DNA of 64,000 nt from Pararhizobium sp. IMCC3301 (GTDB taxonomy: Bacteria; Pseudomonadota; Alphaproteobacteria; Rhizobiales; GCA-2746425): NCBI RefSeq assembly GCF_030758315.1, contig NZ_CP132336.1, positions 62,001-126,000 of the forward strand, written 5' to 3'. Below the pieces are notes generated by a model that worked only from the letters and a program-made list of their open reading frames with translations, had not been told where the DNA came from and ran no database searches. Made by a program: the position numbers and the translations under genes. Shown here piece after piece: positions 30,925 to 45,787 of the stretch (position 1 is the first letter of the stretch; the number at the start of each line of letters is the position of its first letter).

Positions 30925-32130
30925 ATGAATGGTATTGTCATCGTTGGTGCTGGTCAGACGGGAGCGTCACTCGCGGCGAAGCTGAGAACGCTTGGCTATA
31001 ACGACAATATCACCATGATTGGCGAGGAGCCGGTGCCGCCCTACCAGCGTCCGCCGCTCTCGAAAGGCTATCTTCTCGGCGAAATGGCGCTTGAACGGAT
31101 CTATCTGCGGGGCCCCTCGTTCTGGGAGGATCAGAAGGTTAACTTGCGTCTCGGCGCGGCAGCCACTGCAATCGACCGCACCGCGAAATCCGTTCGTGTC
31201 GGCGGCCAGAGCATTCCCTACGGCCAGCTCGCGCTGGCCACCGGCTCGCGCCCGCGCCGCCTGCCGGCAGCGATCGGCGGCGATCTGACCGGTATCTATA
31301 CCGTGCGTACGCTTGCCGATGTTGACGCCATGGCGCCGGACTTCGTGAAAGGCCGCCGGCTCCTCGTCATTGGCGGCGGCTATATTGGGCTGGAAGCGGC
31401 GGCAGTGGGCGCGAAGCTGGGGCTTCAGGTCACCCTGATCGAAATGGCGCCGCGCATCCTGCAGCGGGTGGCCGCGCCCGAGACTTCGGATTATTTCCGC
31501 AAGCTCCATACCGAGCATGGTGTGACGATCCTTGAAAATACCGGTGTCGACCGGCTGACCGGCAAGGGCCGGGTCGCGGGCGCGGTACTCTCGGACGGCA
31601 GCGAGATTGCGGTCGATTTCGTCATTGTCGGCGTCGGCATCACACCGCTGACGCTGCTCGCCGAGGAGGCCGGGCTGGACATCGACAACGGTATCCGCAC
31701 CGACGAATTCGGCCGTACTTCGGACCCGGATATCTGGGCTGCCGGCGACTGCGCTTCGTTTCCCTACAAGGGCGGGCGGGTCCGGCTGGAAAGCGTCGGC
31801 AACGCCATAGGGCAGGCAGAAGTGGTGGCTGAAAACATGCTTGGCGCTGGCAAGTCATACGAGGCAAAGCCATGGTTCTGGTCCGACCAGTACGACGTCA
31901 AACTGCAGATCGCCGGGCTCAACACCGGCTACGACCAAATCGTCACAAGGGGCGGGGGCGATGCGGTCAGCTTCTGGTATTACGCCGCCGAGAAGCTTCT
32001 GGCCGTCGACGCCATGAACGACGCCCGCGCCTACATGATCGGCAAACGGCTGATCGAGATGGGCAGGTCCCCGGACCCGGCAATGATCGCCGATCCGGCA
32101 GCTGACCTGCGCATATTGTTGAAAACATGA
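30925..32130 (+). CDS. NAD(P)H:ferredoxin reductase, putidaredoxin/rhodocoxin reductase type
   Basis: 401 residues. FAD motif GIVIVGAGQTGASLAAKLR at the start, PPYQRPPLSKGYL, the NAD motif LLVIGGGYIGLEAAAVGAKL near residue 150, and IWAAGDCASFPYKG. It moves electrons from NAD(P)H to the ferredoxin encoded just upstream. A GGAA lies before the ATG in the 90-bp gap after the ferredoxin gene. It is the last chromosomal gene before the integrated element, 129 bp away from attL. Confidence 0.95.
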   Translation: MNGIVIVGAGQTGASLAAKLRTLGYNDNITMIGEEPVPPYQRPPLSKGYLLGEMALERIYLRGPSFWEDQKVNLRLGAAATAIDRTAKSVRVGGQSIPYGQLALATGSRPRRLPAAIGGDLTGIYTVRTLADVDAMAPDFVKGRRLLVIGGGYIGLEAAAVGAKLGLQVTLIEMAPRILQRVAAPETSDYFRKLHTEHGVTILENTGVDRLTGKGRVAGAVLSDGSEIAVDFVIVGVGITPLTLLAEEAGLDIDNGIRTDEFGRTSDPDIWAAGDCASFPYKGGRVRLESVGNAIGQAEVVAENMLGAGKSYEAKPWFWSDQYDVKLQIAGLNTGYDQIVTRGGGDAVSFWYYAAEKLLAVDAMNDARAYMIGKRLIEMGRSPDPAMIADPAADLRILLKT

Positions 32131-32259
32131 GGAACGTTAAGACAACACCGTGTGAGGCGTATCCGCAAGCACCGAGAAGGATCGACAACTCGTTCAGTAC
32201 GAAATCGTCACCCATGTCTCGGGTCGCTCAACCTATGTCTCCGGGTCGGACAACGAGAA

Positions 32260-32276
32260 AAATGGCGGATGGGGTG
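32260..32276. repeat. attL, 17-bp copy of the tRNA-Ser 3' end
   Basis: AAATGGCGGATGGGGTG, identical to 44613-44629. No other tRNA sequence is present here, as expected for the distal junction of an element inserted in a tRNA 3' end. Confidence 0.9.
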
Positions 32277-32349
32277 TCCGCTTACCCGATAGGGCAGTCA
32301 GTAATTACACAATAAAATCAATAACATATAAATTTCATGCTTTGCAAAA

Positions 32350-32393
32350 TGTGCAGCACTGTGTGCAGCAAATTCTAAACTTCGCGTTTAGAA
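32350..32393. promoter_or_regulatory. Candidate integrase arm sites and a hairpin near attL
   Basis: TGTGCAGCA occurs at 32350-32358 and 32362-32370 (12-bp period). The same 9-mer recurs near the other end at 44516-44524. Just inside is a perfect dyad: TTCTAAAC (32373-32380), TTCGC, GTTTAGAA (32386-32393). Placement about 75-95 bp inside each att suggests arm-type binding sites for the integrase; the hairpin may be a terminator or operator. Confidence 0.5.
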
Positions 32394-32420
32394 CCAAGCC
32401 CCCACAAGTCAAAAAGAGAA

Positions 32421-32460
32421 CGCCGCTCGGACTAGGAATCCGAACGGCGCTTGTCTCGTT
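32421..32460. terminator. Strong hairpin upstream of the primase gene
   Basis: CGCCGCTCGGA (32421-32431) pairs with TCCGAACGGCG (32439-32449) with one mismatch and a 7-base loop. A T-rich run follows on the plus strand, and an A-rich run precedes it, so it could end transcription in both directions. It may protect the element from chromosomal readthrough or act as an attenuator for the primase gene. Confidence 0.55.
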
Positions 32461-32501
32461 TCGCAATGACACCTGGACACCCCAATTTAAGGAAAAACAA
32501 G

Positions 32502-34805
32502 ATGCACCAGACCTCAAAAACCTACCACAAAACAAGCGTCTCTGACAAGCCTTCGCTTCCTTTGAGCGATCTAGCCGACGCCCTGATCTGGGTCGCGTGG
32601 CGCGAAACCAATGAGGGCCGAAAGCTGCCCGTTAATCCTGCGACAGGACGCGCGGCTAAATCGGATGATCCCGATTCTTGGGGAACCCGAAAGGCTGCCT
32701 ATAAGCGCACACAGAACAGCCGTTGGAAGCGCGAGAAAACAGGCCAGGTGGGTGTCGGTGTCATGTTCGGCCCGCTCGCCCAGGAGGAAGGTTGGCGGCT
32801 TTGCGGCGTCGATCTGGATGGCTGCCGTGATCCTGACACTTGCGACCTGGAGCCGTGGGCCGAAGTCGTGGTGGACCGCTTTGCCAGCTTCACCGAAACT
32901 TCTCCCAGCGGGACAGGTGTCCACATTCTGTTCCTTGCCAGCGAGTCCGACTTTGCGAAGCTGCGGGACAGCGGCCTGGTCACGGATAAGGGCGGCGCGG
33001 AGTTCTCCCTGGGCGATCACACCGAAATCGCGCTGTTCATGGGTGGCCGCTATTTCACCGTTACCGAAGATTTAATCAGGGAGGAATCGGCGATCCGTGC
33101 TGTTCCGCTCAAGACCTTGCGCTGGCTTGTCCGGGACCACGGCCCCGCGTTCAAGCGGGGCGCGGGCAAAGCTGCCACTGCGGGTAGTGGCGATGATTCC
33201 GGGTCCGGCCTTGGCTTCAAGTTCCTGTGTGACCGATTCCGCGAAGGCTTTGACGAAGACGAAGCCCGCGCCGCCATTGGCGAAGATGCTGGGGACGCGG
33301 GAGCCTGGTGGCAGCGCGCAGGGGACAGGCAACAGGACAGGACCGTCCAGAACGCGCGCAAGCGGATCACCGGGGAAGGCGCGGAGATTATCGACTTGTT
33401 TGACGATCTGGACGACCCGGATGTGGAAGCCGCCTATATCCTTGGAGTCGAACCAGACACGGACTCGGATTTTGAACTAGACGAAGACGGTGTGATCCGG
33501 GCGTTCACGGCAGCCCACAAGGACGAACTGCGGTTCGATCATGCGGCGGGGTCTTGGTTCCGGTTCGACGGCAATTCCTGGCGGCGTGAGGAGACGAAGC
33601 TGGCCCACCACTACGCCCGCAAGCTGGCAACGGACATGGCCGACGACGATCCAAAGGCCAAGGCGCTGCGCAAGGTCAGCGTATGGGAAGCGATTGAACG
33701 GGGCGCGCGCACGGTGCGCGAGTTCGTGGCAACAGCGGCGGACTGGAACCGCGACCCGTGGCTATTGGGGACGCCCAGGGGGACGGTTGATCTGCGGACG
33801 GGCAGCCTGTCACCCGGACGCCCAGACGATCACATATCGCGCCTGACTGCCGTCGCACCGATCCCGCTGGAAAGGTTCGACGCGGAGCGTGATTGCCCGC
33901 GTTGGCTGGCCTTCCTGGACGAAGCCCTGGACGGCGACGCCGAAGCGATCCGTTTCCTTCGCATGTGGGGTGGCTATTCTTTGTCAGGCGAGACCAAGGA
34001 ACACGCGCTGGTGTTCGTCTACGGCCCAGGCGGTTCCGGCAAATCGACGGCGATCAACACCGTTGCCGACATCCTGGGCGAATATGCGATCAACGTGGCG
34101 ACCTCGACTTTGACGGCAGCAAGGCACGATGCACACCCGGAAGAAATTGCCCGTCTTGATGGCGCGCGGTTGGCCTGGGCCTCGGAGACTGAGAAGGGGC
34201 GGGCCTGGGCAGAAAACCGGATCAAGTCGCTGACGGGCGGGGACAAGATTACGGCGCGATTCATGCGCCAGAACTCTTTCGAATTTACGCCACAAATGAA
34301 GCTGGTGATCGTGGGTAACAATGCCCCGACGCTGACCAGCGTAGACGAAGCCGTGAAGCGGCGGTTCATCATTCTGCCGTTCGACCATCCCCCCAAATCA
34401 AAGGACACGAATCTGCCTGCCAAACTTCGCGAGGAGTGGCCAGGAATCCTGTCATGGATGATCGAAGGGTGTCTGGACTGGCAGGCTCATGGGCTGGTTC
34501 GTCCGGCGGTCGCGGAGCGCGCAACAGAAGCCTACTTCGCAGAACAGGACATTTTCGCCCAGTGGATTGAGGATTGCTGCACCACAGGGAAGCATGAAGC
34601 GGACACGACAGGGAATCTCTGGGATTCCTGGAGCGCCTACGCCTATGAGAATGGCGAAGCCCCCGGAACACGGAAGCGCAGTTTTCCAGAGACACTTTCG
34701 CAGCGCGGATTTGAGGCGATCAAGAACACTAACAGCATTCGGGGTCGAGGCTATCGCGGAATCCGTGTGGCCGTGGGACAAGTGGGTGATTTCGATGTTC
34801 TGTAA
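32502..34805 (+). CDS. P4/D5-type primase-helicase
   Basis: 767 residues from the ATG at 32502, preceded by AAGGA; the open frame starts further left. N-terminal bifunctional primase-polymerase-like domain: GVGVMFGPLAQEEGWRLCGV leading to the acidic VDLDGC, then FTETSPSGTGVHIL, the usual metal and catalytic region. The C-terminal half is an SF3 helicase of the D5/P4 family, with Walker A GPGGSGKST near residue 510, then VIVGNNAPTLTSVDEAVKRR. It would start and drive replication of the excised element. It is the leading rightward gene and is followed by the 248-bp repeat-bearing gap and the terminase genes. Satellites such as P4 and the PICIs carry related proteins. Confidence 0.9.
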   Translation: MHQTSKTYHKTSVSDKPSLPLSDLADALIWVAWRETNEGRKLPVNPATGRAAKSDDPDSWGTRKAAYKRTQNSRWKREKTGQVGVGVMFGPLAQEEGWRLCGVDLDGCRDPDTCDLEPWAEVVVDRFASFTETSPSGTGVHILFLASESDFAKLRDSGLVTDKGGAEFSLGDHTEIALFMGGRYFTVTEDLIREESAIRAVPLKTLRWLVRDHGPAFKRGAGKAATAGSGDDSGSGLGFKFLCDRFREGFDEDEARAAIGEDAGDAGAWWQRAGDRQQDRTVQNARKRITGEGAEIIDLFDDLDDPDVEAAYILGVEPDTDSDFELDEDGVIRAFTAAHKDELRFDHAAGSWFRFDGNSWRREETKLAHHYARKLATDMADDDPKAKALRKVSVWEAIERGARTVREFVATAADWNRDPWLLGTPRGTVDLRTGSLSPGRPDDHISRLTAVAPIPLERFDAERDCPRWLAFLDEALDGDAEAIRFLRMWGGYSLSGETKEHALVFVYGPGGSGKSTAINTVADILGEYAINVATSTLTAARHDAHPEEIARLDGARLAWASETEKGRAWAENRIKSLTGGDKITARFMRQNSFEFTPQMKLVIVGNNAPTLTSVDEAVKRRFIILPFDHPPKSKDTNLPAKLREEWPGILSWMIEGCLDWQAHGLVRPAVAERATEAYFAEQDIFAQWIEDCCTTGKHEADTTGNLWDSWSAYAYENGEAPGTRKRSFPETLSQRGFEAIKNTNSIRGRGYRGIRVAVGQVGDFDVL

Positions 34806-34929
34806 GTCATTGATTTCTTTGAGTTGGGACAAGTGGGACAAGTCTCCGCTTATATCGCCCTACGCGCGCGAGGCTAAGGGTTTCCCATCTCTAGGGGCTT
34901 ATATGGAAGACATGTCCCACTTGTCCCAA
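34773..34929. repeat. GGGACAAGT repeats with a perfect 17-bp inverted repeat; candidate origin or packaging site
   Basis: GGGACAAGT occurs at 34775-34783 (inside the primase end), 34826-34834 and 34835-34843, and inverted (ACTTGTCCC) at 34919-34927. TTGGGACAAGTGGGACA (34824-34840) and TGTCCCACTTGTCCCAA (34913-34929) are perfect inverted copies 72 bp apart. No gene occupies 34806-35053. The place, between the replication gene and the small terminase gene, fits iterons of a replication origin or binding sites of the small terminase at a cos/pac site. Confidence 0.75.
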
Positions 34930-35053
34930 GGGTCCTTCCCCGTCTGCTCGAATCGGGGGGAGCGCGGAGCCCCGGGAATCCACTCACAACAGAAAAATTC
35001 AAATCAGAAACCCGTTCTGGAGTTTCCAGAAATCCTGGAAAGGGAATGCCGCC

Positions 35054-35548
35054 ATGCAAGCATATGATGACGACATAGAAGCAATCCTTGGCGGTTCCCC
35101 TCTGGGCGATACTGTGACCGCTGCCGAATTGGGGTCCTGGCTTGGCCTGTCTGCAAATCGGGTGAATGCCTTGGCGCGGGACGGTGCGATCTCCCGTGAC
35201 GACCAAAAACGCTTCGATCTGAAACCCGCAATCCGTGCCTATGCCAAACACATGCGCGATGGTCAGACGGGCCGTCTTGCCAGCAATCCTGATCTGGCAG
35301 CCCAGAAGCTACGGCTGGCCCAGGAACAGGCGGACAAGCTGGCAATCGCCAATGCCAGGACGCGGGGCGAGATGCTGGACGCAAAACAGGTGGCGGCCAC
35401 CTGGGCGGGCATCCTGACCGACCTACGGGCGGCGGTGCTGGCTATCCCCCAGCGGGTGGCTGGACGCTGCGCTCTTGATCGCGCCACGACCCAAGTCCTG
35501 GACGAAGAAATCCGCGCTAGCCTGGAGGCTATTGCAGATGAAACATGA
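35054..35548 (+). CDS. Phage terminase small subunit (Nu1-like)
   Basis: 164 residues. An N-terminal helix-turn-helix (VTAAELGSWLGLSANRVNAL, then RDGAISRDDQKRFDLKPAIR) is followed by a long helical part (NPDLAAQKLRLAQEQADKLA), the layout of lambda gpNu1-type small terminases. It should bind the packaging site and hand DNA to the large subunit, whose gene overlaps its end by 11 bp. AGGGAATGCCGCC precedes the ATG. It follows the repeat-bearing gap, the expected place for its target site. Confidence 0.85.
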   Translation: MQAYDDDIEAILGGSPLGDTVTAAELGSWLGLSANRVNALARDGAISRDDQKRFDLKPAIRAYAKHMRDGQTGRLASNPDLAAQKLRLAQEQADKLAIANARTRGEMLDAKQVAATWAGILTDLRAAVLAIPQRVAGRCALDRATTQVLDEEIRASLEAIADET

Positions 35549-37313
35549 CCCTCTAAACCGCTTACGCCGTGAAGCTCTACAGGTCCTGCGACCGCCCCGG
35601 AAAATGGCTCTTTCCGATTGGGTGGAGCGGAATGTTTATCTGCCGTCGTCCATTGCAGCACATCCTGGGCGGATGCGCCTCTGGCCACACCAAGTTGCAA
35701 TCGCCGACTCCATCGGTGATCCGAACGTCGAACGGGTCAGCGTCCTAAAGAGCGTGAGAATTGGATATACCCAGCTTCTGACAGCGGCTATTGGGCACTA
35801 TGCCGTGAACGATCCAAGCCCGCTTCTGGTGGTGGTCCCTGCGGAGCAAGACGCCCGTGACCTCATGGTGGGCAACATCGAACCGACCTTTGCGGAGTCG
35901 CCTGTTCTGCGGGCCGCTCTGGCAGCGGATGACGGCGGGCGGGACACGCTATTCCAGCGCCGCTTCCGCGGCGGATCGCTCAAGCTGGTCAGCGCCCGCG
36001 CCCCGCGCAATCTGAGGGGCCACACGGCGCGTGTGTTGCTACTGGATGAGGTTGACGGGTTCGAGATCAGCGCGGGCGGTGAAGGCGACCCCGTGACGCT
36101 GGCAGAGCGACGGACCCTTTCTTATGGCGACCGTAAGATCGTTATGGGGTCAACGCCAGTGGATGAGGCTACCAGCCGAATCGTGCGGGCATATGAACGA
36201 TCCGATCAGCGCGTGTTCGAGTGCGCCTGCCCAGAATGTGGGGCTTTGACGGAACTCACCTGGGCCATGATTGAATGGCTACCGGATGAACCCGAAACCG
36301 CCGCGTTCCGCTGCCCACACTGCGAAGAATTGATTGATGAGCGCCACAAGCCCGGAATGGTCCAGGACGGCGCATGGCGGGCCACCAGGCCAGACGTGCT
36401 GGGGCATCACGGCTACCGCATGAACGCTCTTATCAGTCTCTTGCCTAACGCCTCATGGGGCAAGCTGGCGACGGAGTTCCTGGAGGCGAAGAAAAGCCCG
36501 GAAACCCTAAAGGCGTTCACGACGACGCTGCTGGCGGAACCGTGGCGCGACCTTGGCGAAGAAATTGATGACGCCAGCCTCATGGCGCGGCGCGAACAGT
36601 TCAATCTGTCCAACATCCCGCCGGAAGTGCTGGTGCTGTCTGTTGGCATCGACGCCCAGGACGACCGATTGGAAATCTCGACCGTGGGCTGGACGCGGGA
36701 CGGGGACGCGCTTGTCCTGGCCCATGAGATCGTCTGGGGTAACGTCCTGGATGATGAAACCTGGCAAGAGGCGGACGATCTCTTGCGCCGTGACTTCAAA
36801 CACCCTCTGGGCGGCACCCTTCGGATTGATTCAGCAATCGTGGACTCCGGCTCTGGGGGTCACACGGATATGGTCTATGCGTTTTGCCGACCACGTATTG
36901 CGCGGCGGATCATGGCCGGGAAGGGCGTGGCCGGATTTCAGCGCCCAGCGATCCAGCTATCGAAGACCCGCGCGGCGCGGTTGATCCTGGTCGGGGTTGA
37001 CACGATCAAATCCCAAGTGATGAACAGGCTCCAGACAGGTCGCACAATCCGATTCAGTCATGATCTGGATGCCACCTATTTTGAGCAACTGACCGGCGAA
37101 CGCCGGATCGTGAAGTATCGGCGGGGCGCACCTGTACGGGCATTTGAGCGGATACCTGGAAGGCGAGTAGAAACACTGGATTGCTTGGTTTATGCTTGGG
37201 CAGCACGTCAGCTTGTGGGGTTGGACTTGGAGCGCCGTGAAACCGATCTTTCACGGGCCAACGGACCTGAGAAACGCCCAGCGATTATTCGGTCAAGTTG
37301 GATGGAACGGTGA
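35538..37313 (+). CDS. Phage terminase large subunit, GpA family
   Basis: 591 residues from the ATG at 35538 (MKHDPLNRLRREALQVLRPP). GpA-type packaging motor: ATPase region with SVLKSVRIGYTQLLTAAIGH near residue 75 and LLLDEVDGFEISAGG near 170 as Walker B; a zinc-like CPECG and CPHCEE pair in the middle; and a C-terminal nuclease domain (SVGIDAQDDRLEISTVGWTR; AIVDSGSGGHTDMVYAF). The gene is complete. It overlaps the small subunit gene and is followed by the reversed HEPN-like pair rather than by the portal gene, an interruption of the usual order. Confidence 0.92.
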   Translation: MKHDPLNRLRREALQVLRPPRKMALSDWVERNVYLPSSIAAHPGRMRLWPHQVAIADSIGDPNVERVSVLKSVRIGYTQLLTAAIGHYAVNDPSPLLVVVPAEQDARDLMVGNIEPTFAESPVLRAALAADDGGRDTLFQRRFRGGSLKLVSARAPRNLRGHTARVLLLDEVDGFEISAGGEGDPVTLAERRTLSYGDRKIVMGSTPVDEATSRIVRAYERSDQRVFECACPECGALTELTWAMIEWLPDEPETAAFRCPHCEELIDERHKPGMVQDGAWRATRPDVLGHHGYRMNALISLLPNASWGKLATEFLEAKKSPETLKAFTTTLLAEPWRDLGEEIDDASLMARREQFNLSNIPPEVLVLSVGIDAQDDRLEISTVGWTRDGDALVLAHEIVWGNVLDDETWQEADDLLRRDFKHPLGGTLRIDSAIVDSGSGGHTDMVYAFCRPRIARRIMAGKGVAGFQRPAIQLSKTRAARLILVGVDTIKSQVMNRLQTGRTIRFSHDLDATYFEQLTGERRIVKYRRGAPVRAFERIPGRRVETLDCLVYAWAARQLVGLDLERRETDLSRANGPEKRPAIIRSSWMER

Positions 37314-37322
37314 AAATCTAAT

Positions 37323-38141
37323 TTAGAATACCGACTTCAATATTTTTTCTGTTCCAGAAACTAAATCCTCAATTTCGTCTTTCGTGGGTTCCTTCCCCTT
37401 AGCGTGGTCGCAGATATTTCGAATATCAGCTAGGTGTTGAACAAAGCGCCATTGCGAAGTGGAGACGACATCTGCGTCTTTAAGAAGTTGATTTAGGTCG
37501 GAAATACCAGGGTTTTTCTTTCGAACAGTTATGTTGTGGGTCACGCAAACCTGCTTGAGATGTTTTTCGATAACAACGCCGCAAATGGCTCCAGAAGCCC
37601 GCAGGAATCCGGCTTTTGCCAAAGCGCGAGCGCTATCGACCTCGGAGTCGAAAAGGTCAGCTTGAAGAATGGCCGTTAAGTCAAGCAAAGAGCTGTTCAG
37701 TTTCTTTTTTGCAGCTTTCACAATGTTAAGTTGTTGAACAAATTCTGGGATTGCCGCGCGCCCTTCTACAACCACTTCATTTTCCCAGCCTCGCGTAATG
37801 TGCAAGCCTTGGAGGTAGTCGCGGATCATGTAGTTTTGGAAGGTAATGTCTTTTCTGACACGAGGTAATTCGTAATAAGATATAAAGTCATTCAGTCGAT
37901 CTGGGAAAATTTGTTTAACTACCGCCCGTGCTTCTGAATACCAAGCCTGATAGTCGGTTTTGAAATCTGGCAATTCCTCTAGGTATTTTTTGATTTTTTC
38001 TTCATTCCCTTTGAACATCTTGGAGGTCGCATCTTCAAAAGCTTCTCCAACGCATTCGTGTTGAATAGCCATATAGAGCATATTTCCGTCAGCTATCAGT
38101 GTATCTAGTTCATCTTCAAACCGCTTAGACTTCTCAGACAT
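37323..38141 (-). CDS. HEPN-like protein with C-terminal R-x4-H motif; possible defence cargo
   Basis: 272 residues. The N-terminal two thirds are helical and unrecognised. The last 130 residues form an all-helical segment ending in HLADIRNICDHAKGKEPTKD. R241-NICD-H246 matches the R-x4-6-H motif of HEPN ribonucleases, as in many toxins and abortive-infection proteins; a DUF4145/Abi-like fold is the closest I can name. The gene is reversed relative to the packaging genes, is visibly AT-rich, and sits between terminase and the rest of the head genes, like a phage moron. The small gene at 38153 lies 11 bp upstream in the same direction. RNase activity and defence are inference. Confidence 0.8.
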   Translation of the reverse strand: MSEKSKRFEDELDTLIADGNMLYMAIQHECVGEAFEDATSKMFKGNEEKIKKYLEELPDFKTDYQAWYSEARAVVKQIFPDRLNDFISYYELPRVRKDITFQNYMIRDYLQGLHITRGWENEVVVEGRAAIPEFVQQLNIVKAAKKKLNSSLLDLTAILQADLFDSEVDSARALAKAGFLRASGAICGVVIEKHLKQVCVTHNITVRKKNPGISDLNQLLKDADVVSTSQWRFVQHLADIRNICDHAKGKEPTKDEIEDLVSGTEKILKSVF

Positions 38142-38152
38142 AATTCTTCACC

Positions 38153-38365
38153 TCAAAATTCTTGGATCACTCGTTGTGCCGCCCGAAAGTGGGCCCGATC
38201 TGCGGGCATCTTGTACTCATTGCCGTAGAATTGGAACAGACGATTAAAGCGGCGGCGCATAGGGCGCGTGAACCCATGCGGCGCGATGGAATAGTCTATG
38301 TCTTCGGGCTTAACGGGAACAACGGTCCCGTCTGCCAAAACATCAACTGAAACGACGTAGTGCAA
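38153..38365 (-). CDS. Small 70-residue protein upstream of the HEPN-like gene
   Basis: 70 residues starting at a TTG (38365) that has GGAGG five bases upstream. Begins MHYVVSVDVLADGTVVPVKP and is basic in the second half (TRPMRRRFNRLFQFYGNEYK). It ends 11 bp before the HEPN-like gene, so both are probably on one leftward transcript. It could be an antitoxin-like partner or an unrelated phage protein. No family is recognised. Confidence 0.6.
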   Translation of the reverse strand: MHYVVSVDVLADGTVVPVKPEDIDYSIAPHGFTRPMRRRFNRLFQFYGNEYKMPADRAHFRAAQRVIQEF

Positions 38366-38385
38366 GGAAGCCTCCGAAATGAGTT

Positions 38386-38415
38386 GGGGGCGAGACCTGC
38401 AAAAGCCCCGCCCCC
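38386..38415. other. GC-rich hairpin in the gap left of the 221-residue gene
   Basis: GGGGGCG (38386-38392) pairs with CGCCCCC (38409-38415), loop of 16 bases, no T tract. It lies just upstream of the leftward small gene. The remaining gap to 38611 is AT-rich and probably holds promoters for both directions. Confidence 0.35.
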
Positions 38416-38611
38416 TTGAGAAAGGTTCCTGTTATGACCGACAGGCACCTTGAGCTATACATATCGGAATAATTTACACTGATCAAGTCAAAATATCCTT
38501 CTAAACTGACAGGACACTTAATGTAACTCGCTGTTTATAAACGAATTGTTTAATAGACAGCCTTGCAGAATCAGAATATGTTGCCCCAAGTAAAACCACC
38601 TGGAGGCTACT

Positions 38612-39277
38612 ATGACAACCACCGATGATACCCCCGTCCTGGAATATTGCCCGCCCATTGAACGAAAGCCGGGGCATTTGACAATCAAAACCCTGACAGA
38701 CCGATGCCATGAAGTCCCGATCGAATGGGATTTCGTCTATGGAATCGCGAAAAAGTGCATTCAAGAACAACATTTAACCCCCCTGGGCGTAGACGCGAAC
38801 GATGGGCGGAACCCCTTCCTGTTTGGTCAGGACTCCGCCCTGATCCTCAAAGTCATGACCACGCTGGTACTGACAACGGCGAAGGTGTTCGGGGCTGAAG
38901 GCCCGGATAGTTTGGGCCGCGCGGTTTCTAATGCTCTGAAATATCACAATGTCAGTGACCACTTCCCGGACGGTGTGCCGAAGGGCGAGAACGTCCAGGC
39001 CTACTTCCGGCAATTCGGTCGGAATCCAGCGTCATGGGTGATCCTGGACGATGAACGCGGCGTCAAAGGCTGGTCCCTGCATGTGCGCTGGTTCTTTGAC
39101 GACGACGGGCAGAAGCGTTGCGCGGCCAAGCTGTGGAACGTCACAACGGGCTTCATGCCTGACTTCCTGCCCAATGCGGATGGTCTTGAAGCGCTTCCCC
39201 ATGCTGAGATCATCATGCCGATGGACCGGATTTTGCCGATCCTCAAGTTCAACCGCGACCGCAGCAGGATGAACTGA
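38612..39277 (+). CDS. Unrecognised 221-residue phage-element protein before the portal gene
   Basis: 221 residues, starting at an ATG after GGAGG (GGAGGCTACTATG). Begins MTTTDDTPVLEYCPPIERKP; the centre has GQDSALILKVMTTLVLTTAK and VRWFFDDDGQKRCAAKLWNV. No signal peptide or clear domain is recognised. It ends two bases before the portal gene and is co-directional with the head genes. In lambda-like phages the small connector gpW sits here, but in this element gpW lies after the capsid gene, so this protein is an extra. It could be an accessory head factor or a satellite-specific factor. Confidence 0.8.
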   Translation: MTTTDDTPVLEYCPPIERKPGHLTIKTLTDRCHEVPIEWDFVYGIAKKCIQEQHLTPLGVDANDGRNPFLFGQDSALILKVMTTLVLTTAKVFGAEGPDSLGRAVSNALKYHNVSDHFPDGVPKGENVQAYFRQFGRNPASWVILDDERGVKGWSLHVRWFFDDDGQKRCAAKLWNVTTGFMPDFLPNADGLEALPHAEIIMPMDRILPILKFNRDRSRMN

Positions 39278-39279
39278 GA

Positions 39280-40674
39280 ATGTCCATCTGGTCCCGATTC
39301 ACGAAACCGTTTCGGCACACCGCCGAACCTGTCCAGCGCCGCAGCTTTGAAGCGGCTTCCGGGCGGCGCTTTGGTGGTGTTGCAAGCTACGGCCCCCACG
39401 GCCCCGAAACGACTTCAGCGGGACCAGTGGTGCGGGGCAGGGCACGCCATGCCTTCGCCAACAATGGCTATATCCGCAACGCCGTTTCCGGGACTGTTGC
39501 GGAGACTGTCGGCGCTGGCATCGAAGCCAATTCCGCACATCCCGACCCGACGATCAGACGCGCAATCGACACCACCTTCCTTGAGGCTGCGACTGCTATC
39601 GACGCCGATGGCCGCACCGATCTGCGCGGTCTGACGGCGGCTGCGGTGCAAGCTGAGTTTGTGGACGGGGAAGCCTTTTTTGCCTTGGAATATCGCGAAG
39701 GCCGTTTGGCTTTGCGCCAGATTCCTGCCGAATGGATCGATGAATCCCACACTACCGAACTGACCGGCGGCGGCTACATTGTCGCTGGCATCGAGTTCAA
39801 CCCTCTGGGCGAGCGTATGGCATATCATGTGCGGCCTTCACGCCCTACAGACCTCTATCCGACAGCTGGCGAACGTATACGCATTGCTGCGGAGGATATG
39901 CTGCATGTGTTCCGGTCTCTTGGACCTGGCCAAGTCAGGGGCGTTTCCCAATTAGCGCCTGTCTTGCTGGCCTTGAACGAAGCCGATCAGCTACAGGATG
40001 CGCGGCTGGTCGGCAGCAAGGTCGCTGCTATGTTTGCTGGTTTTATTACAGATATGAACGCGACCGGCGGCTTGCAGTTTGATGGCGACCAGACCGGAAA
40101 CATCCTTGAAAGTGGTCTCGAACCGGGCACCCTAAAAGTGTTACCGGCGGGTGTGGATATCAAATTCAGTGCGCCAGATCAGGCGCGGGACTCCAATGCT
40201 TTCGCCGAAGAAATCCGGGGCCTGATCGCTGCGGGTCTGGGCTGCCCACGCCATATCCTGGACGGGGATTTGACAGGGGCGAATTATTCGAGCCTGCGGG
40301 CGGGTCTTCTGCCTTGGCGGGCCAAGATTGAGCAATACGTCTACCAAACCCTGATCCCGCAATTTCTCGACCCGATCTTCAAGCGCATTGTCACAGACGC
40401 CTACCTGTCAGGGCGGCTGGATGCGCCTGATTTGATGGACGCGATCAAGGCTGAATGGCTACCCCCACGCCCGATGCAGGTTGACCCGCAAAAAGACGCC
40501 AAGGCGCTGCGGGAACTTCTGTCTTTGGGTCTCACAAGCCGCCGCCAGGCCGTGGCATCCCTTGGCTGGAATATCGACGATCTGGATGCGGAAATCGCTG
40601 CCGACCGCGAGCGCGAAACCGTTTTGGGATTGAGTTTCAGCGACCCCAAAAAGGACCAGTCCGATGCCGCATGA
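39280..40674 (+). CDS. Phage portal protein, lambda GpB family
   Basis: 464 residues. Family features are the early HAFANNGYIRNAVSGTVAET, GIEANSAHPDP, the VDGEAFFALEYREGRLALRQ region, IDESHTTELTGGGYIVAGIE, and LTGANYSSLRAGLLPWRAKI near the C-terminus. It forms the dodecameric vertex for DNA entry and head-tail joining. It overlaps the protease-capsid gene by 11 bp. The gene appears intact. Confidence 0.93.
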   Translation: MSIWSRFTKPFRHTAEPVQRRSFEAASGRRFGGVASYGPHGPETTSAGPVVRGRARHAFANNGYIRNAVSGTVAETVGAGIEANSAHPDPTIRRAIDTTFLEAATAIDADGRTDLRGLTAAAVQAEFVDGEAFFALEYREGRLALRQIPAEWIDESHTTELTGGGYIVAGIEFNPLGERMAYHVRPSRPTDLYPTAGERIRIAAEDMLHVFRSLGPGQVRGVSQLAPVLLALNEADQLQDARLVGSKVAAMFAGFITDMNATGGLQFDGDQTGNILESGLEPGTLKVLPAGVDIKFSAPDQARDSNAFAEEIRGLIAAGLGCPRHILDGDLTGANYSSLRAGLLPWRAKIEQYVYQTLIPQFLDPIFKRIVTDAYLSGRLDAPDLMDAIKAEWLPPRPMQVDPQKDAKALRELLSLGLTSRRQAVASLGWNIDDLDAEIAADRERETVLGLSFSDPKKDQSDAA

Positions 40675-42448
40675 TGAATCCAAAACCGTTTTGGTTCGTG
40701 CCGCCCTGACGCGACCGAATTCTTATGATCCCCAGACCCGCACTGTGTCTGCCGTGATCGCTACTACAAACCCCGTCCAAAGGCGGGACGCCCGTGGCCC
40801 CTATCTCGAAATCCTGACCGCTGACACGCTTGATCTGTCCGCAGTCGCCGGGTTGCCCGTCCTCGATTCCCACAGAACCCAGACAGTGCGTGACCAGATC
40901 GGACGGGTGCGGTCCATCGCGGTGGAAGGCGAAGCTGTTGTCGCCCTTCTTGAGCTTACTTCGGCTGAAGACGCAGTTCCAGTTGTCCAGCGGATTGCAG
41001 ATGGCACAGTTAGCGGAGTCAGCATCGGTTATCGCGTGGCAGGCTGGATCGAAACACAAACCCCACAGGGCCGGGTCAAAACCCCGTCAGGCTGGCGCAT
41101 TTCTGAAGTCACATTAACAAGCAATCCGGCGGACCCCTCCGCCCGTCTGAGGCAAGAGGAGTCAACCATGCCTGATCCCGTAATTGAAACCCAAACCGTT
41201 CCGACCCCGGAAGCGGTCGAAACCCAACGCCGAAGCGATATTCGTGGCCTTGTCCGCTCTGCCGGTCTTGGCCCTGAAATTGCGGACGATTTGATTGATG
41301 CAGGATCGGATATGACTGCTGCGAAAGCCACTGTCTTCGATGCTTTGGAAGAGAAGCGCCGCAGCGCTCCGATTATCCGCACTCATGCTCCAGCAAATGA
41401 CGACCCTGCCGTTGTGTTGGGCCGTCAAGCTCAAGCCCTGCACATTCGTATGACCGGCGGTGACTGCCCGGAAGAGTCCCGTCAATACATGGGCGAAAGC
41501 CTGTTGGATATGGCCCGTGGCAGCCTTGCCCGTGCTGGTGTGTCAACCCGTGGCTTAAGCGCCGATGAAGTCTTCACGCGGGCCGCTACGCACACAACAT
41601 CGGACTTCCCGCTGACAGTCAGCAACGCCATGAACAAAACAGCCTTGTCCTCTTACCAAGCGGCTGAGTCCCCGCTCAAGACGCTCTGCCGTCAGCGCAC
41701 CTTGCCGAACTTCAAAGAGTCCACGGCGATCCGTCTGGGCGAAATGGGTCGGCTGGAGCCTTTGGACGAAAACGGCGAGATCACACACACCAGCCGCGGG
41801 GAAAACGGCGAGAAAATGAACCTGAAAACCTTTGCGCGGGGTATCACGGTATCCCGCAAGCTGATGATTGATGACGATCTTGGCCTTCTGGGCGATATGA
41901 CTTCGGCAATGGGTGAGGCTGCCGCGCAGACAGAAGCCGACATTCTTGTGGCGCTGGTTATCGATAATCCAAACCTGTCGGACGGCACACCTGTTTTTGA
42001 CGCAAGCCGGGGCAACGTCGGAGCGGTGGCTGCTCCGACTGTAGCGGCCCTGACCGAGTCCCGTCAGGCTATGCGAACTCGGACAGGCCTGGACGGCGAG
42101 ACGATAATCAGCGCCGCGCCACGCTACGTTTTGGTTCCTGCTGATCTGGAAACGGAGGCCGAACAGGTCCTCGCTTCGATTCAGCCAAATGCTACTGCCG
42201 ATGTAAACCCGTTCGGCGGCAAGTTGTCTCTTCTGGTGGAGCCTCGGCTTCCTGCGGCGACGTGGTACGTGTTCGCAGACCCCGTGCGTTTGGCAGCGAT
42301 GCAATACGCCTACCTGTCCAGTGCCCAAGGCGTCCAAATCCAACGGACAGAGGCCTGGGACACGCTGGGCATGAAGTATCGCGCGTTCCTGGATTTCGGC
42401 GCAGGCTGGCTGGACTGGCGCGGCACGCACCAGATTCCGGGGGCATAA
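40664..42448 (+). CDS. Prohead protease fused to major capsid protein
   Basis: 594 residues. Residues 1-165 resemble a U35-type prohead protease, with the catalytic histidine in GLPVLDSHRTQ (His70) and serine in TVSGVSIGYRV (Ser117 or Ser120). A linker rich in Pro, Thr and charged residues follows (about 165-220). The rest is a Mu gpT/HK97-fold-type capsid protein: LGEMGRLEPLDENGEITHTS, KTFARGITVSRKLMIDDDLG, and ending FLDFGAGWLDWRGTHQIPGA. Fusions of this type are known in prophages of Proteobacteria. Self-cleavage would free the capsid protein. The reading frame is continuous, so it is a true fusion and not a frameshift. Confidence 0.9.
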   Translation: MPHDESKTVLVRAALTRPNSYDPQTRTVSAVIATTNPVQRRDARGPYLEILTADTLDLSAVAGLPVLDSHRTQTVRDQIGRVRSIAVEGEAVVALLELTSAEDAVPVVQRIADGTVSGVSIGYRVAGWIETQTPQGRVKTPSGWRISEVTLTSNPADPSARLRQEESTMPDPVIETQTVPTPEAVETQRRSDIRGLVRSAGLGPEIADDLIDAGSDMTAAKATVFDALEEKRRSAPIIRTHAPANDDPAVVLGRQAQALHIRMTGGDCPEESRQYMGESLLDMARGSLARAGVSTRGLSADEVFTRAATHTTSDFPLTVSNAMNKTALSSYQAAESPLKTLCRQRTLPNFKESTAIRLGEMGRLEPLDENGEITHTSRGENGEKMNLKTFARGITVSRKLMIDDDLGLLGDMTSAMGEAAAQTEADILVALVIDNPNLSDGTPVFDASRGNVGAVAAPTVAALTESRQAMRTRTGLDGETIISAAPRYVLVPADLETEAEQVLASIQPNATADVNPFGGKLSLLVEPRLPAATWYVFADPVRLAAMQYAYLSSAQGVQIQRTEAWDTLGMKYRAFLDFGAGWLDWRGTHQIPGA

Positions 42449-42451
42449 TCC

Positions 42452-42670
42452 ATGGCTCTGAGCCCCGATCAGCTAACCGCGCTGCGCGATGATCTTCTGG
42501 ACGCCCGTTTGTCGGGCATGCGGCGGGTGCGTGACCAGAACGGCGAAGAGATCGAATATAAATCCGACGCCCAGATGGCCGCCGCATTGGCTGCCCTGGA
42601 ACGTGAGATCGCGAACCTGTCCAGGCAAGCGCCTCACACCATCCGGTTCAATACCTCGAAAGGAATTTGA
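42452..42670 (+). CDS. gpW-like head-tail joining protein
   Basis: 72 residues, MALSPDQLTALRDDLLDARL then SGMRRVRDQNGEEIEYKSDA, the length and pattern of lambda gpW (helical start, beta hairpin, helical end). gpW plugs the DNA-filled head and prepares it for tail attachment. Its presence in an element with no tail genes suggests that heads are meant to join tails provided by another phage. It starts 3 bp after the capsid stop. Confidence 0.85.
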   Translation: MALSPDQLTALRDDLLDARLSGMRRVRDQNGEEIEYKSDAQMAAALAALEREIANLSRQAPHTIRFNTSKGI

Positions 42671-42672
42671 GA

Positions 42673-43002
42673 ATGAGAAATTATGTTCAGGTAGGTGACA
42701 ATATCACCATTACAGCCGCCGCCGCTGCCCTTTCCGGGGATATTGTGAAGATCGGCAGTCTTGTCGGTATTGCGTCCACTGACGCTGCCATTGGCGAGTC
42801 TGTTGTGCTGACCACAACCGGCGTCTTTGATCTCGGTAAAGTTGCTATCGATGTCCTGTCGGTCGGTGATCCGATCTATTGGCGAGCATCTGACGGCCTT
42901 GTGACCGGCACAGCAACAGCCAACACGAAAATAGGTGTGGCGGTGTCTGCAGCAGGCAACCCGTCTTCCAGTGTCCGTGTGCGGCTCAACGGCACATTCT
43001 AA
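42673..43002 (+). CDS. DUF2190-family protein, probable capsid decoration/stabilising protein
   Basis: 109 residues from the ATG at 42673, with AGGA at 42661-42664; a TTG at 42667 would add two residues. A beta-rich protein: NYVQVGDNITITAAAAALSG, VVLTTTGVFDLGKVAIDVLS, GDPIYWRASDGLVTGTATAN. DUF2190 proteins are found next to capsid genes and probably stabilise or decorate the shell. It overlaps nothing and is followed by a 66-codon gene after 4 bp. Confidence 0.85.
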   Translation: MRNYVQVGDNITITAAAAALSGDIVKIGSLVGIASTDAAIGESVVLTTTGVFDLGKVAIDVLSVGDPIYWRASDGLVTGTATANTKIGVAVSAAGNPSSSVRVRLNGTF

Positions 43003-43006
43003 TCCA

Positions 43007-43207
43007 ATGGGATCGGCTGTCATCACAACCGATCTGGAGCGCCTTCGGGATGCTCTTGAATTTGTCGCCAAGCTGGTGGTGGCCGATCCCGTCTATGCGC
43101 CGATATTCGTTCGCCTCGAAAATGAAATCGCAGACGAAGAGGCTTTGATTGCCGGGGATGTGGTGGCCCGTGCGCGGGCTGTGGCCCGTCAGAATGCCAC
43201 GCGCTGA
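43007..43207 (+). CDS. Small 66-residue protein at the end of the head gene cluster
   Basis: 66 residues from the ATG at 43007 (MGSAVITTDLERLRDALEFV). Predominantly helical, acidic middle (RLENEIADEEALIAGDVVAR). No family is recognised. It sits where a head-tail connector or tail-junction gene would be expected, and its end overlaps the end of the convergent integrase gene by 19 bp. After it no further rightward gene occurs, so the head cluster stops before any tail gene. Confidence 0.65.
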   Translation: MGSAVITTDLERLRDALEFVAKLVVADPVYAPIFVRLENEIADEEALIAGDVVARARAVARQNATR

Positions 43208-44469
43208 ATAACACCCTGCAACGCCTCAAGTGTCGCCCCCTTCCCATACCTCTCCCTATTGAGGGCGTGTCCAAAAAGATCGCGCCTGACCCGTTCATCT
43301 ATGCCCGCAGCCAAGAGGCGATCTTCAAAACTATGTCGCAGCCCATACAAAGAATGATCCGGCGATTCCATAAGGCCATTGGCCCGAAGATATTTGTTGA
43401 CGGTCGCGCTCAAGGTGGCGCTGTCGCGGTATTTGGGGAACCCTTTAGGACATTCCTTAAAGGCGTCCAGCGAAACGCCAACAAGCGGGATGACGCGGCG
43501 TGCATTGCGGCTCTTCAACTGCCGACCGATTGGCTCAATCGAGATATGCGGCACATTGTCGTCCAGCCTGATCTGGGCGGGCGTCAGGGCCGCGCCTTCA
43601 CTGGGGCGGTAGCCCGTGTTGACCATGCCAAGGACAATGCAGCGGGCTTCCGTGTTAAGGCCGTCCAGCGCGCCCGGTGCGAGCAATTTGTCTCTGATCC
43701 AGGATTCGGAGAATGGCGGGCGCTGTTTGGCTTCGCCTTCCTTGAAGCTGAGATCGGACAGGGGCAGGACCAGCGCCAAGCGTTTCATTTTGTTGACGGT
43801 TTTCAGCACATCGCCCAGATGGATCAAATCCTTGTTCGCCGAATTGGGCGTCAGACCTTCGGACTCCAGTTTCTCGAACCACCAACTGCGAAAATCCAGC
43901 ATGTCGTCGCCAGAAATGTCCGGCAGGGCCTTGTCTCCGACCACAGATATAAAATTGCTGACAGCTTTGATTCTCGGATTTCTCCAACGGCGAAGCTGGT
44001 CATCACTTTTGCCGATACATTTATCGGCCGCAAGCTGCCAATAAAGGTCCAGCGCCCGTGTTACCGTAATAGGCGGTTGCGCAACGCCGCCAAGAACCGC
44101 AGCGGTTTCTACGGCGCGGACCTTCTCACTTTTGCCTGTATGGCTCGCCTTGGCCACGCTTACGCGCTCCAGAAGGTCTTCGCGAGGCAATTCGGCGACC
44201 CGTTGCGCTGGCAGGTATCGAAAGCCCCGCACTGCGGCCAATTCCTTCGCAGCCTCAAAGCGGCGTTCGGCGTCTTCCGAGTCACCTGCCATCTGGGCTT
44301 CCCAACCTTCGATCAGGTGTTGCCACGCGGACGGGGCTTTCTGTCTGGCAATGGATTCGGAGTCAGTGTGCAAGCTGATCCACACTGTTTGGCGTGTTTC
44401 AACAGGCTTGTATCGACGGGGTACCCGCTTGCAAAGGTGAAAAGTGTTGCTTCGCTTAATGACTTGCAT
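43189..44469 (-). CDS. Tyrosine recombinase integrase
   Basis: 426 residues. The N-terminal part (FHLCKRVPRRYKPVETRQTV) is of the DUF6538 type common in alphaproteobacterial integrases. The catalytic domain has the first arginine in GMVNTGYRPSEGAALT, the box SLYGLRHSFEDRLLAAG (arginine and histidine present, the first histidine replaced by tyrosine as often seen in this group), GHALNRER and the tyrosine in RERYGKG. It starts about 145 bp from the tRNA-Ser 3' end and is convergent with the head genes. It should catalyse integration into and excision from the tRNA. No excisionase gene is recognised. Confidence 0.94.
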   Translation of the reverse strand: MQVIKRSNTFHLCKRVPRRYKPVETRQTVWISLHTDSESIARQKAPSAWQHLIEGWEAQMAGDSEDAERRFEAAKELAAVRGFRYLPAQRVAELPREDLLERVSVAKASHTGKSEKVRAVETAAVLGGVAQPPITVTRALDLYWQLAADKCIGKSDDQLRRWRNPRIKAVSNFISVVGDKALPDISGDDMLDFRSWWFEKLESEGLTPNSANKDLIHLGDVLKTVNKMKRLALVLPLSDLSFKEGEAKQRPPFSESWIRDKLLAPGALDGLNTEARCIVLGMVNTGYRPSEGAALTPAQIRLDDNVPHISIEPIGRQLKSRNARRVIPLVGVSLDAFKECPKGFPKYRDSATLSATVNKYLRANGLMESPDHSLYGLRHSFEDRLLAAGIDERVRRDLFGHALNRERYGKGATLEALQGVIQRVAF

Positions 44470-44515
44470 GTGAAAACCCTCGGAATTGCATTGTGCTACA
44501 AGTTGTATAGCATTA

Positions 44516-44524
44516 TGTGCAGCA
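44516..44524. promoter_or_regulatory. Candidate integrase arm site near attR
   Basis: TGTGCAGCA, the same 9-mer found twice near attL. A related TGTGCTACA lies at 44492-44500. Both are between the integrase start and attR. Confidence 0.45.
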
Positions 44525-44612
44525 AAACAAGCGTTTTAATAAACCGTGAGTTTACGGATAATCCGAAAAACTATTTTATTTCAATAGGTTACATGCATAT
44601 TGGCTTGGGAGT

Positions 44613-44629
44613 AAATGGCGGATGGGGTG
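44613..44629. repeat. attR, 17-bp repeat within the tRNA-Ser 3' end
   Basis: AAATGGCGGATGGGGTG, identical to 32260-32276. Fourteen of its bases (44616-44629) belong to the tRNA gene, including the encoded CCA and acceptor stem, so integration keeps the tRNA intact. Confidence 0.9.
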
Positions 44630-44705
44630 GGATTCGAACCCACGGTACGCTTTCACGCACGCCGGTTTTCAAGACCGGTGCCTTCAACCGCTCGGCCACC
44701 CATCC
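44616..44705 (-). tRNA. tRNA-Ser(UGA)
   Basis: 90 nt including the encoded CCA. Acceptor stem GGATGGG pairs with CCCATCC; the anticodon stem CCGGT/ACCGG encloses loop CTTGAAA with anticodon TGA. A long variable arm (GCGTGCGTGAAAGCGTACC) is present as expected for serine. The T loop is TTCGAAT. It is the integration site of the element on its left. Confidence 0.97.
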
Positions 44706-44944
44706 AGCAACTCGTTAAGCGATATACAGCCCTATCTCTCAATCCGTGATGAAATGCAAGGGGTAGTGTCGGGCAATGTGGTGATGAAAGCCGTTAACAC
44801 AAAAACCACCATGAAAACGATTGTTAAAGCTCTGTTAACTGTAGTTGATTCAATTTAACGAAAATTTTGCTTCAAATTGAATCACTGCTCGCCATGCGGC
44901 AAAACTTCATGCTTAAAAGAATGCTTCTTTTGAAAGGACATTCT

Positions 44945-45787
44945 TTGCCATACCGCCAAATCAACACGGACCTCTTCAACAAAAGCAGACTTCTGGTGAT
45001 TGGTGCGCTTGCACTTTCATTGTCTGCCTGCGGCAGCAGCAGCAGCAGCCGGATTGATCCAAAATATGGTGTAGCCGCCAGCCCGCGGGTGTCCAAAGCC
45101 GCCTATATTCCCTCGGGCGGCGGCCGCTATCAGGTTGGCAAGCCTTACAAGATTGCCGGACGCTGGTATGAGCCGAAAGAAGTCAACCGCTATGAGAAAT
45201 CCGGCGTCGCATCCTGGTATGGCGATGCCTTTCATGGCCGGCGCACAGCAAATGGCGAAATCTACAATATGAACTCGTACAGCGCCGCCCATCCCACATT
45301 GCCGTTGCCGAGCTATGTCCGGGTGACAAATCTGGCCAACCGGAATTCGGTCGTTGTCCGGGTGAATGACCGCGGCCCGTTTGCCCGTGACCGCCTGATC
45401 GATCTGTCAAAACGAGCCGCCGATGCCCTGAACTTCAGAAATCAGGGTTTGGCAAAGGTTCACGTCAGTTACCTCGGCAAGGCTCCGGTAGAAGGCGGCG
45501 ACGCTGCCTTTCTGGCAGCCTCTGTCGTCATCAAAGGTCAGCCCGGACCGATGCGTCGGCGCGCCGACGCCACGCCGGACGCACCGGCACTGATGATGGC
45601 AGAGACTGGTGCCGACACCGGACCGGCTGGAGCGGCGCAGGTTCCGATTGCCTATCGGGACAACCGCCCCATTATTTCCGGCCCTGGTAGCGGATCTGGT
45701 ACCGGACCTGCGCTGCTATGGAGCGGTGATCGCCCCACAGTAGGACAATCTGTTGCTTCAATTCAGGGGTTTGGGCCTGCTCAATAG
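44945..45787 (+). CDS. rlpA: RlpA-family septal ring lytic transglycosylase lipoprotein
   Basis: About 280 residues. The frame is open from 44867, but a TTG at 44945 has AAAGGA six bases upstream and gives a compact lipoprotein signal (KSRLLVIGALALSLSAC, lipobox cysteine near residue 29). The double-psi barrel domain carries GVASWYGDAFHGRRTANGEI, the histidine in SYSAAHPTLPLP and the aspartate in VVRVNDRGPFARDRLIDLSK. RlpA cleaves glycan strands lacking stem peptides at the septum. No SPOR domain follows, unlike many family members; the tail is low-complexity. Start choice is less certain than the function. Confidence 0.88.
   Translation: MPYRQINTDLFNKSRLLVIGALALSLSACGSSSSSRIDPKYGVAASPRVSKAAYIPSGGGRYQVGKPYKIAGRWYEPKEVNRYEKSGVASWYGDAFHGRRTANGEIYNMNSYSAAHPTLPLPSYVRVTNLANRNSVVVRVNDRGPFARDRLIDLSKRAADALNFRNQGLAKVHVSYLGKAPVEGGDAAFLAASVVIKGQPGPMRRRADATPDAPALMMAETGADTGPAGAAQVPIAYRDNRPIISGPGSGSGTGPALLWSGDRPTVGQSVASIQGFGPAQ

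Follow-up and report, generated by a model that had tools for sequence, protein, structure and literature searches.

Here we describe an integrated element of Pararhizobium sp. IMCC3301 that is, with high probability, a phage satellite making its own head. It lies in a 64,000-nucleotide stretch of contig NZ_CP132336.1 (the whole stretch that was analysed, hereafter the window), where it spans positions 32260–44629 and is flanked by 17-bp attachment (att) repeats at a tRNA-Ser gene, one unit amounting to 12,353 bp. The element has the att sites and integrase of an integrated mobile element and an incomplete set of virion genes, with no match to tail or lysis families among its genes in Pfam, PHROG and NCBI-type family scans. 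Judging from this gene content, it would depend on a helper phage and borrow that phage's tails. An own head combined with borrowed tails is a recently described satellite strategy.

Gene content, boundaries and integration site

A first-pass annotation, made from the letters alone, had proposed a capsid-forming satellite of about 12.4 kb with all frames intact, carrying an integrase at a tRNA-Ser att site, a P4-type primase-helicase, and a full head and packaging set, and devoid of tail, lysis and repressor genes. Every gene that it named is present and intact as judged from open reading frames (ORFs) and profile searches, and the integrase, the primase and each member of the head and packaging set have family matches; its length estimate and the lack of recognisable tail and lysis genes were borne out as well. 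It had overlooked the HEPN gene (37323–38141), the gene before the portal gene (38612–39277) and a cos-like site (34930–34970). The head genes form what looks like a full series, whose last members are the gpW joining protein and a decoration protein. The features are as follows (aa, amino acids).

32260..32276, no strand: att repeat at the end away from the integrase; its 17-bp core, AAATGGCGGATGGGGTG, was read directly and found as an exact repeat, with control windows compared
32451..34805, + strand: P4/D5-type primase-helicase, 784 aa (PF08706, 7e-24; PF19263; TIGR01613, P4 family, 263 bits); TTG start as listed, true start possibly downstream
34930..34970, + strand: cos-like packaging site, GGGTCC N21 GGGGRRCGYGGAGC; conserved in seven aligned elements, single genome copy, with its GGGTCCTTCC half near two phage ends
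35054..35548, + strand: small terminase subunit, terS (PHROG 57, 4e-22)
35475..37313, + strand: large terminase subunit, terL, of lambda gpA type (PF05876 and PF20454, GpA ATPase and nuclease; PHROG 15)
37323..38141, − strand: HEPN-domain protein, cargo in the variable terL–portal slot (PF05168, 3e-5, above gathering score)
38153..38365, − strand: 70-aa ORF beside the HEPN gene (no Pfam match; weak relatives in L099 and L102)
38612..39277, + strand: 221-aa protein before the portal, putative MerR-like regulator (no Pfam or PHROG match; predicted model)
39280..40674, + strand: portal protein, lambda family (PF05136, 3e-70; TIGR01539 above cut-off)
40664..42448, + strand: prohead protease–major capsid protein fusion (NF045541, 639 bits, cut-off 525; PF25209, 3e-47; PHROG 4523)
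42452..42670, + strand: gpW-like head–tail joining protein (NF047331 above cut-off; PHROG 2545)
42667..43002, + strand: capsid decoration protein, DUF2190, Phage_cement_2 (PF09956, 4e-26)
43007..43207, + strand: 66-aa ORF in the slot of an AlpA-like gene in some relatives (no Pfam match; 65% identical ORF in L099)
43189..44469, − strand: tyrosine integrase (PF00589, 4e-8, above gathering score; PHROG 1)
44613..44629, no strand: att repeat on the integrase side; its 17-bp core, AAATGGCGGATGGGGTG, overlaps tRNA-Ser at the 3' end
44616..44705, − strand: tRNA-Ser(tga), the integration target (ARAGORN; also Rfam scan)

The 17-bp att core compares with a longest chance repeat of 14 bp in 540 control windows. 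The capsid gene is present as a single copy in the host genome. In all four congeners, whose tRNA-Ser loci were inspected directly, the element was not found at that locus, and the same four genomes gave no capsid match. A clean empty site could not be demonstrated: the left flank of the window was not found in the 9–19-kb stretches of the congeners. The first-pass annotation had suggested looking for the same gene order at tRNA-Ser in related genomes; elements of the same kind do occur in relatives, at 11 types of tRNA gene. On the other side of the same tRNA-Ser, two congeners, L143 (G003) and L144 (G002), carry about 12 kb and about 5.5 kb, respectively, between tRNA-Ser and rlpA, without a match to the element, which suggests that this tRNA-Ser is an integration hotspot. 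A second P4-type primase in the host genome itself (L003, 11456–13972; G000:C1, approximately 3,325,455–3,327,971) is 77–78% identical to that of the element and lies near transposase-like genes, without head genes or a cos-like motif; the locus is probably a remnant of a related element.

These boundaries bear on whether the head has been domesticated by the host, for example as a gene-transfer agent or a storage capsid. Alphaproteobacteria are known for gene-transfer agents, and the head genes are maintained. The integrase, att sites, primase and cos-like site are intact, however, neither the element at its locus nor a capsid match was found in the congeners, as described above, and relatives sit at different tRNA genes, which makes domestication the least probable of the alternatives considered here.

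The statement of the first-pass annotation that there is no repressor may be too strong because the product of 38612–39277 could be a regulator. Eighteen other elements have a gene at this position (aligned as A2, at low identity), and the predicted model of the 221-aa protein (mean predicted local distance difference test score, pLDDT, 72.9) has as its best PDB match the MerR-type regulator CvkR (E 0.06, probability 0.94), with no PDB match at E 0.001. An AlpA-type regulator, typical of capsid-forming phage-inducible chromosomal islands (cf-PICIs), was not matched among the genes of the element, as the first-pass annotation had remarked. Some relatives carry, before the integrase, an 84-aa protein resembling a helix-turn-helix (HTH) protein and AlpA-like by eye; two of these were scanned, one giving an HTH_17 match below the cut-off, the best obtained among relatives, and the other no match.

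Relatives, tails and packaging

A capsid-protein search returned three named relatives (a Rhodobacteraceae metagenome-assembled genome (MAG), a Marinosulfonomonas MAG and Acuticoccus mangrovi) and five viral contigs, and 44 of 397 sampled genomes of the host's order gave capsid matches at E ≤1e-60. Forty stretches were fetched, covering 40 of the 51 order-level capsid matches outside the window, and their gene order was drawn. These 40, together with the window, L007, L008, L010, L014 and L015, made up 46 sequences in which att repeats were sought. A repeat of at least 14 bp at a tRNA was found in 27, a tRNA without such a repeat in six, and no tRNA in range in 13; among the 540 control windows nine reached 14 bp and none exceeded it, and the observed repeats are at least 15 bp long in 25 of the 27. 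The target tRNAs are of 11 types (Ser, Phe, Met, Glu, Gly, Arg, Asn, Pro, His, Gln and Val). The 27 att-bounded elements are 9.2–15.3 kb long (median 11,929 bp; 22 of them 11.2–13.1 kb), and close relatives end at the integrase or the tRNA. In Acuticoccus mangrovi B2012 (L009) the att repeats enclose a unit of 11.5 kb. The standard order, terL then portal, is found in 20; the other seven (L054, L068, L070, L072, L077, L080 and L082) are rearranged or without a recognised terL or portal. Of the 40 order-level stretches, 23 yielded att-bounded elements, from 22 genomes; with the window's host this gives at least 23 of 397 genomes, so such elements may be of consequence for gene flow among bacteria of soil and sea. 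Four of the remaining 17 stretches (L084–L087) resemble tailed prophages. In L070 and L079 the head genes come first and the terminase genes after them, a hint that modules have been rearranged in the wider group.

The first-pass annotation had held that relatives bearing tail and lysis genes would mark the element as a deleted prophage. Relatives were screened for tails with 46 queries (tail and neck proteins and their neighbours, including hypothetical ones; tblastn, E 1e-5) drawn from seven tailed sources, namely RcBaka, phiAP1, Pyei1, prophage L086, yong2, Vibrio phage 1.083.O and Bordetella phage PBb002. None of the 46 matched any of the 27 att-bounded elements or any of 27 viral contigs bearing the motif described below, one contig (L014 = L096) belonging to both sets. 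Four of five prophage-locus controls were positive (L084, 13 matches; L085, 4; L087, 16; L152, 10), and L086, itself a query source, carries a tape-measure and a tail-tube protein. Three loci assigned to neither class (L079, L017 and L074) gave no query match.

Upstream of terS, an alignment of seven elements displays a block that is conserved though the flanks and even the primase type differ. The exact motif occurs once in the 4.58-Mb genome, with none expected by chance in the window, and was found in 27 of 2.9 million viral contigs; two of these, L010 and L014/L096, were among the sequences from which it was derived. All 27 have terS no more than about 0.5 kb from the motif, with terL after it; 22 have a portal match and 21 a capsid match, the six capsid-less contigs all being 8.2 kb or shorter. 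In 5 of 16 phage records with related genes (BZS1, VP58.5, VHML, phiNP and phiAP1) the GGGTCCTTCC half stands either at the end of the record or a short way upstream of terS. These amount to about three independent cases, because VP58.5 and VHML belong to one genus and the sequence after the site is common to BZS1 and phiNP. In the record of Serratia phage BZS1, where a left cohesive end is annotated, the half lies 31 bp from the end, and in that of VP58.5 the distance is 29 bp; both are tailed phages with related terminases. Across all phage DNA examined, six copies were seen against 0.4 expected. From these positions we infer that the motif is a cos site, which would be cut near 34958–34961, 29–31 bp from its left end, and in L009 near 4980.

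Two other identities were considered. As an Rfam RNA the motif was rejected, a tRNA being the sole match in 32000–45000. As a transcription terminator it has in its favour that part of it can pair and that a short T-run follows it in some relatives; cos is preferred because of the fixed spacing, the sequence conservation and the match to phage ends. The extrapolated terS start in L089 and L113 lies 53–59 bp before the motif, which may there fall within coding sequence, and TTCCAGAA repeats after the motif are enriched, yet present in only 14 of 32 elements. When up to five mismatches were allowed in the 1000 bp before terL, 31 of 40 elements of TerL clade 1 had the motif (24 exactly; controls 15 of 200, at least one by motif overlap; L112 has an exact motif just outside this stretch), as did 4 of 12 in clade 2 (row L058 not valid; controls 5 of 60) and none of 14 tailed rows (controls 7 of 70). 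Given these control rates the relaxed motif is weak; the exact motif offers a simple way to find the nearest members.

Total length appears to be constrained. In the 20 standard-order elements, the length of the cargo correlates negatively with that of the remainder (rho −0.63, p 0.003; permutation p 0.0003 for n = 20 and 0.0057 for the 14 elements below 70% capsid identity), and total length has a standard deviation of 425 bp, where 755 bp would be expected were the parts independent. Ratios of nonsynonymous to synonymous substitution (dN/dS) for terL, portal and capsid were 0.04–0.19 in all 24 comparisons, made in eight close pairs (one locus used twice); these codon comparisons show the relatives' head genes to be under purifying selection. 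Both results fit a still-functional head that holds one unit-length genome: with unit-length cos packaging in a fixed small head, the total would stay close to 12 kb however the cargo varied. From this length pattern a prediction about the capsid follows that can be tested.

It is at this point that a defective prophage, having lost its tail and lysis genes and surviving by chance, can be weighed. The head genes do belong to families also found in tailed phages. Against this stand the lack of recognised tails across the whole group at many tRNA sites, purifying selection on relatives' head genes, the apparent length constraint and the position of gpW, which in the satellites follows the capsid gene but which the annotations of RcBaka, yong2 and Vibrio phage 1.083.O place between terL and portal (LPPA33, S1 and PBb002 have an unannotated ORF of similar size there). 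On relatives' gene order, dN/dS and the tail screen, a deleted prophage was rejected as the principal explanation and is highly improbable.

Origin and comparison with known systems

Searches of 50,697 phage records gave, among the matches listed, a best identity of about 31% for the capsid, along almost its entire length, and of 37.5% for the large terminase; none of 110 and none of 759, respectively, attained 60%. Close satellites have 61–79% capsid identity. In a phylum sample, 25 of 398 genomes had capsid matches, 11 of them outside the class at 33–40% identity, with the match confined to the C-terminal part. When 28 chosen satellites and 11 tailed rows are placed in a capsid tree, one branch parts the two, and the window's capsid sequence groups with the tailless elements. 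The satellite large terminases form two groups, and a single origin was rejected (approximately unbiased (AU) test, p 0.0001; 27 satellite and 17 tailed chosen rows, with long branches). Judged from these alignments, terminases were probably acquired at least twice, and packaging modules were therefore probably exchanged. The first capsid tree was built without L008, L012 and L085 and the first TerL tree without L085, L147 and L150; the second trees comprise chosen rows, other loci, including short contigs, being absent from the trees.

The closest functional likeness is to cf-PICIs. Reportedly, as described by Alqurainy et al. in 2023, these are integrated and tailless, encode their own terminases, portal, protease, capsid and connector, and are expected to use helper tails. 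The element shares with them integration, a similar length, the lack of tails and its own small and large terminase, portal, protease, capsid and connector. Within the available part of one report, cf-PICIs average 14 kb and their main hosts are listed without Alphaproteobacteria (PMC10803314); excerpts of a second describe HNH as encoded with the terminases and a wide distribution across Bacteria (PMC10690885), and in the accessible portion of a third, 900 published cf-PICI capsids are treated as PF05065 (PMC13230959). Measured against these partial accounts, the element differs in that its capsid is of PF25209, fused to the protease (the fusion also matches PF10124 and PF04586), with no capsid match to PF05065 at E 0.001, and in that it has a lambda gpA-type terminase as well as gpW and DUF2190, and gave no HNH match among its scanned genes. 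An AlpA-type regulator, as stated, is likewise unmatched in the element.

Membership of the cf-PICIs proper is thus not supported by the element's genes, as far as the available portions of those reports define the group. Of the first-pass proposal of a capsid-forming satellite, the own-head satellite stands and the cf-PICI assignment is not supported; since the capsid family and HNH differ, the part of its hedge that allowed for a separate lineage fits best. Within the same limits of the sources, the element probably works like a cf-PICI but fails two defining features (a PF05065 capsid and HNH), and it probably evolved independently of cf-PICIs. P4-like satellites and classical PICIs have in common with it an integrase, a P4-type primase and a similar length, but use the helper's capsid, whereas the element encodes its own head. 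The Streptomyces satellites MulchRoom and MiniFlayer share own capsid and packaging genes and, by the description in the available part of the report, differ in direct terminal repeats, no obvious replicase and Streptomyces hosts (PMC10690885). The phages RcBaka (Rhodobacter), yong2 (Microcystis) and S1 (Stenotrophomonas) have the same capsid-fusion family at about 27–31% identity and related terL and portal families; by contrast, tail genes follow their head genes, and gpW (in S1, the similar-size ORF not so annotated) is placed differently, as noted above. Among the titles and abstract openings listed in a literature search, mostly of open-access papers, none described this alphaproteobacterial family of head-making satellites, which may be described elsewhere.

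Several points weigh against a head-making satellite and the wider family built around it. No particle, excision or helper was observed. The tail screen is homology-based and would miss novel or podovirus-type tails; the fifth prophage control, L153, gave no query match, and 7 of the 46 queries came from L086, close kin of three of the controls. Thirteen of the 40 order-level stretches could be assigned neither to satellite nor to prophage. The exact motif was found in none of 384 other genomes of the class sample, phiAP1 has a second GGGTCCTTCC copy far from terS, and in the other 11 of the 16 phage records (the region before terS being covered for part of them) the GGGTCCTTCC 10-mer was not found. 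Three of the seven att-bounded elements outside the length test have the most extreme lengths of all (9.2, 9.9 and 15.3 kb). Support for the capsid clade, 87/90, is not full, and in a quick capsid tree of 72 rows the tailed phage L155 falls beside two irregular long-branch loci. Finally, the host genome gave no match to helper tails of three families only, the tape-measure PF10145, the gene-transfer-agent/siphovirus hub PF13547 and the sheath PF04984. A helper in the same genome is rejected as far as these three families reach.

This last result, and a helper dependence that is inferred only, would suit a tailless virus that is autonomous, or an element carried by capsids with some unknown, tail-free way into cells. 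gpW is known to join heads to tails. Retention of portal and gpW and the lack of a recognised lysis gene argue against this alternative, and its probability is small.

A satellite with its own head would operate as follows. A helper phage would trigger excision, and the element's primase would replicate the 12.35-kb circle; the satellite terminase would cut its own cos and fill a small satellite head with one unit-length genome, after which gpW would close the neck. Helper proteins from the head–tail attachment protein onward would supply the tail, and helper lysis would free the particles. The cargo between terL and portal, here the HEPN gene, may act against competing phages.

A broader reading joins these strands, and we put it forward tentatively, at somewhat less than an even chance. 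Head-making satellites would have arisen once more in Alphaproteobacteria, independently of cf-PICIs, from a phage with a protease–capsid fusion. They would form a class-wide family that kept one head while swapping terminases and integrases, was held at about 12 kb by unit-length cos packaging, has a cargo slot of changing content, some of its genes defence-like, and docks on the tails of diverse phages, hence gene movement between orders. If true, the presence in Hyphomicrobiales and Rhodobacterales of a lineage whose capsid family and terminase are different would imply that the strategy evolves repeatedly.

Cargo slot and irregular relatives

The contents of the terL–portal slot vary between elements. 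The HEPN protein found there in the window has no PADLOC or PHROG match; it may have an anti-phage role. Fifty chosen cargo proteins were examined, 45 of 97 listed plus five from the window, L010 and L012; L072, L077, L080 and L082, in which terL was not found, are outside this set. PADLOC returned one TIR effector, one PDC-S33 and otherwise HTH, control-protein and RmrA/capH-type matches, and one protein, by eye that of L012, has a RelA/SpoT domain. PHROG matches were to regulators and unknowns, with no tail family by name among 25 of the 27 families. A defence role of the cargo is, on these family matches, suggestive only.

Some loci depart from the standard arrangement. L015 (7096–10497, on a plasmid of Paracoccus sp. 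SMMA_5_TC), assigned neither to satellites nor to prophages, is a related locus with 40% capsid identity whose cargo slot holds two methyltransferases and an HNH protein. A weak capsid/protease match to a small Synechococcus elongatus PCC 6301 plasmid (NZ_CP006473.1, 7,842 bp) comes from a plasmid search listing alone. The Rhodovastum atsumiense plasmid RHOAph (L016, NZ_OW485609.1, 10,690 bp) carries a protease–capsid fusion, a DUF3987 protein, ParA and a toxin–antitoxin pair, and may be a plasmid form of capsid-bearing satellite. In L072 (4567–7906, capsid gene oriented forward), a shortened irregular element, an AAA ATPase adjoins a subtilisin-like protease by eye, and the two are possibly a defence pair.

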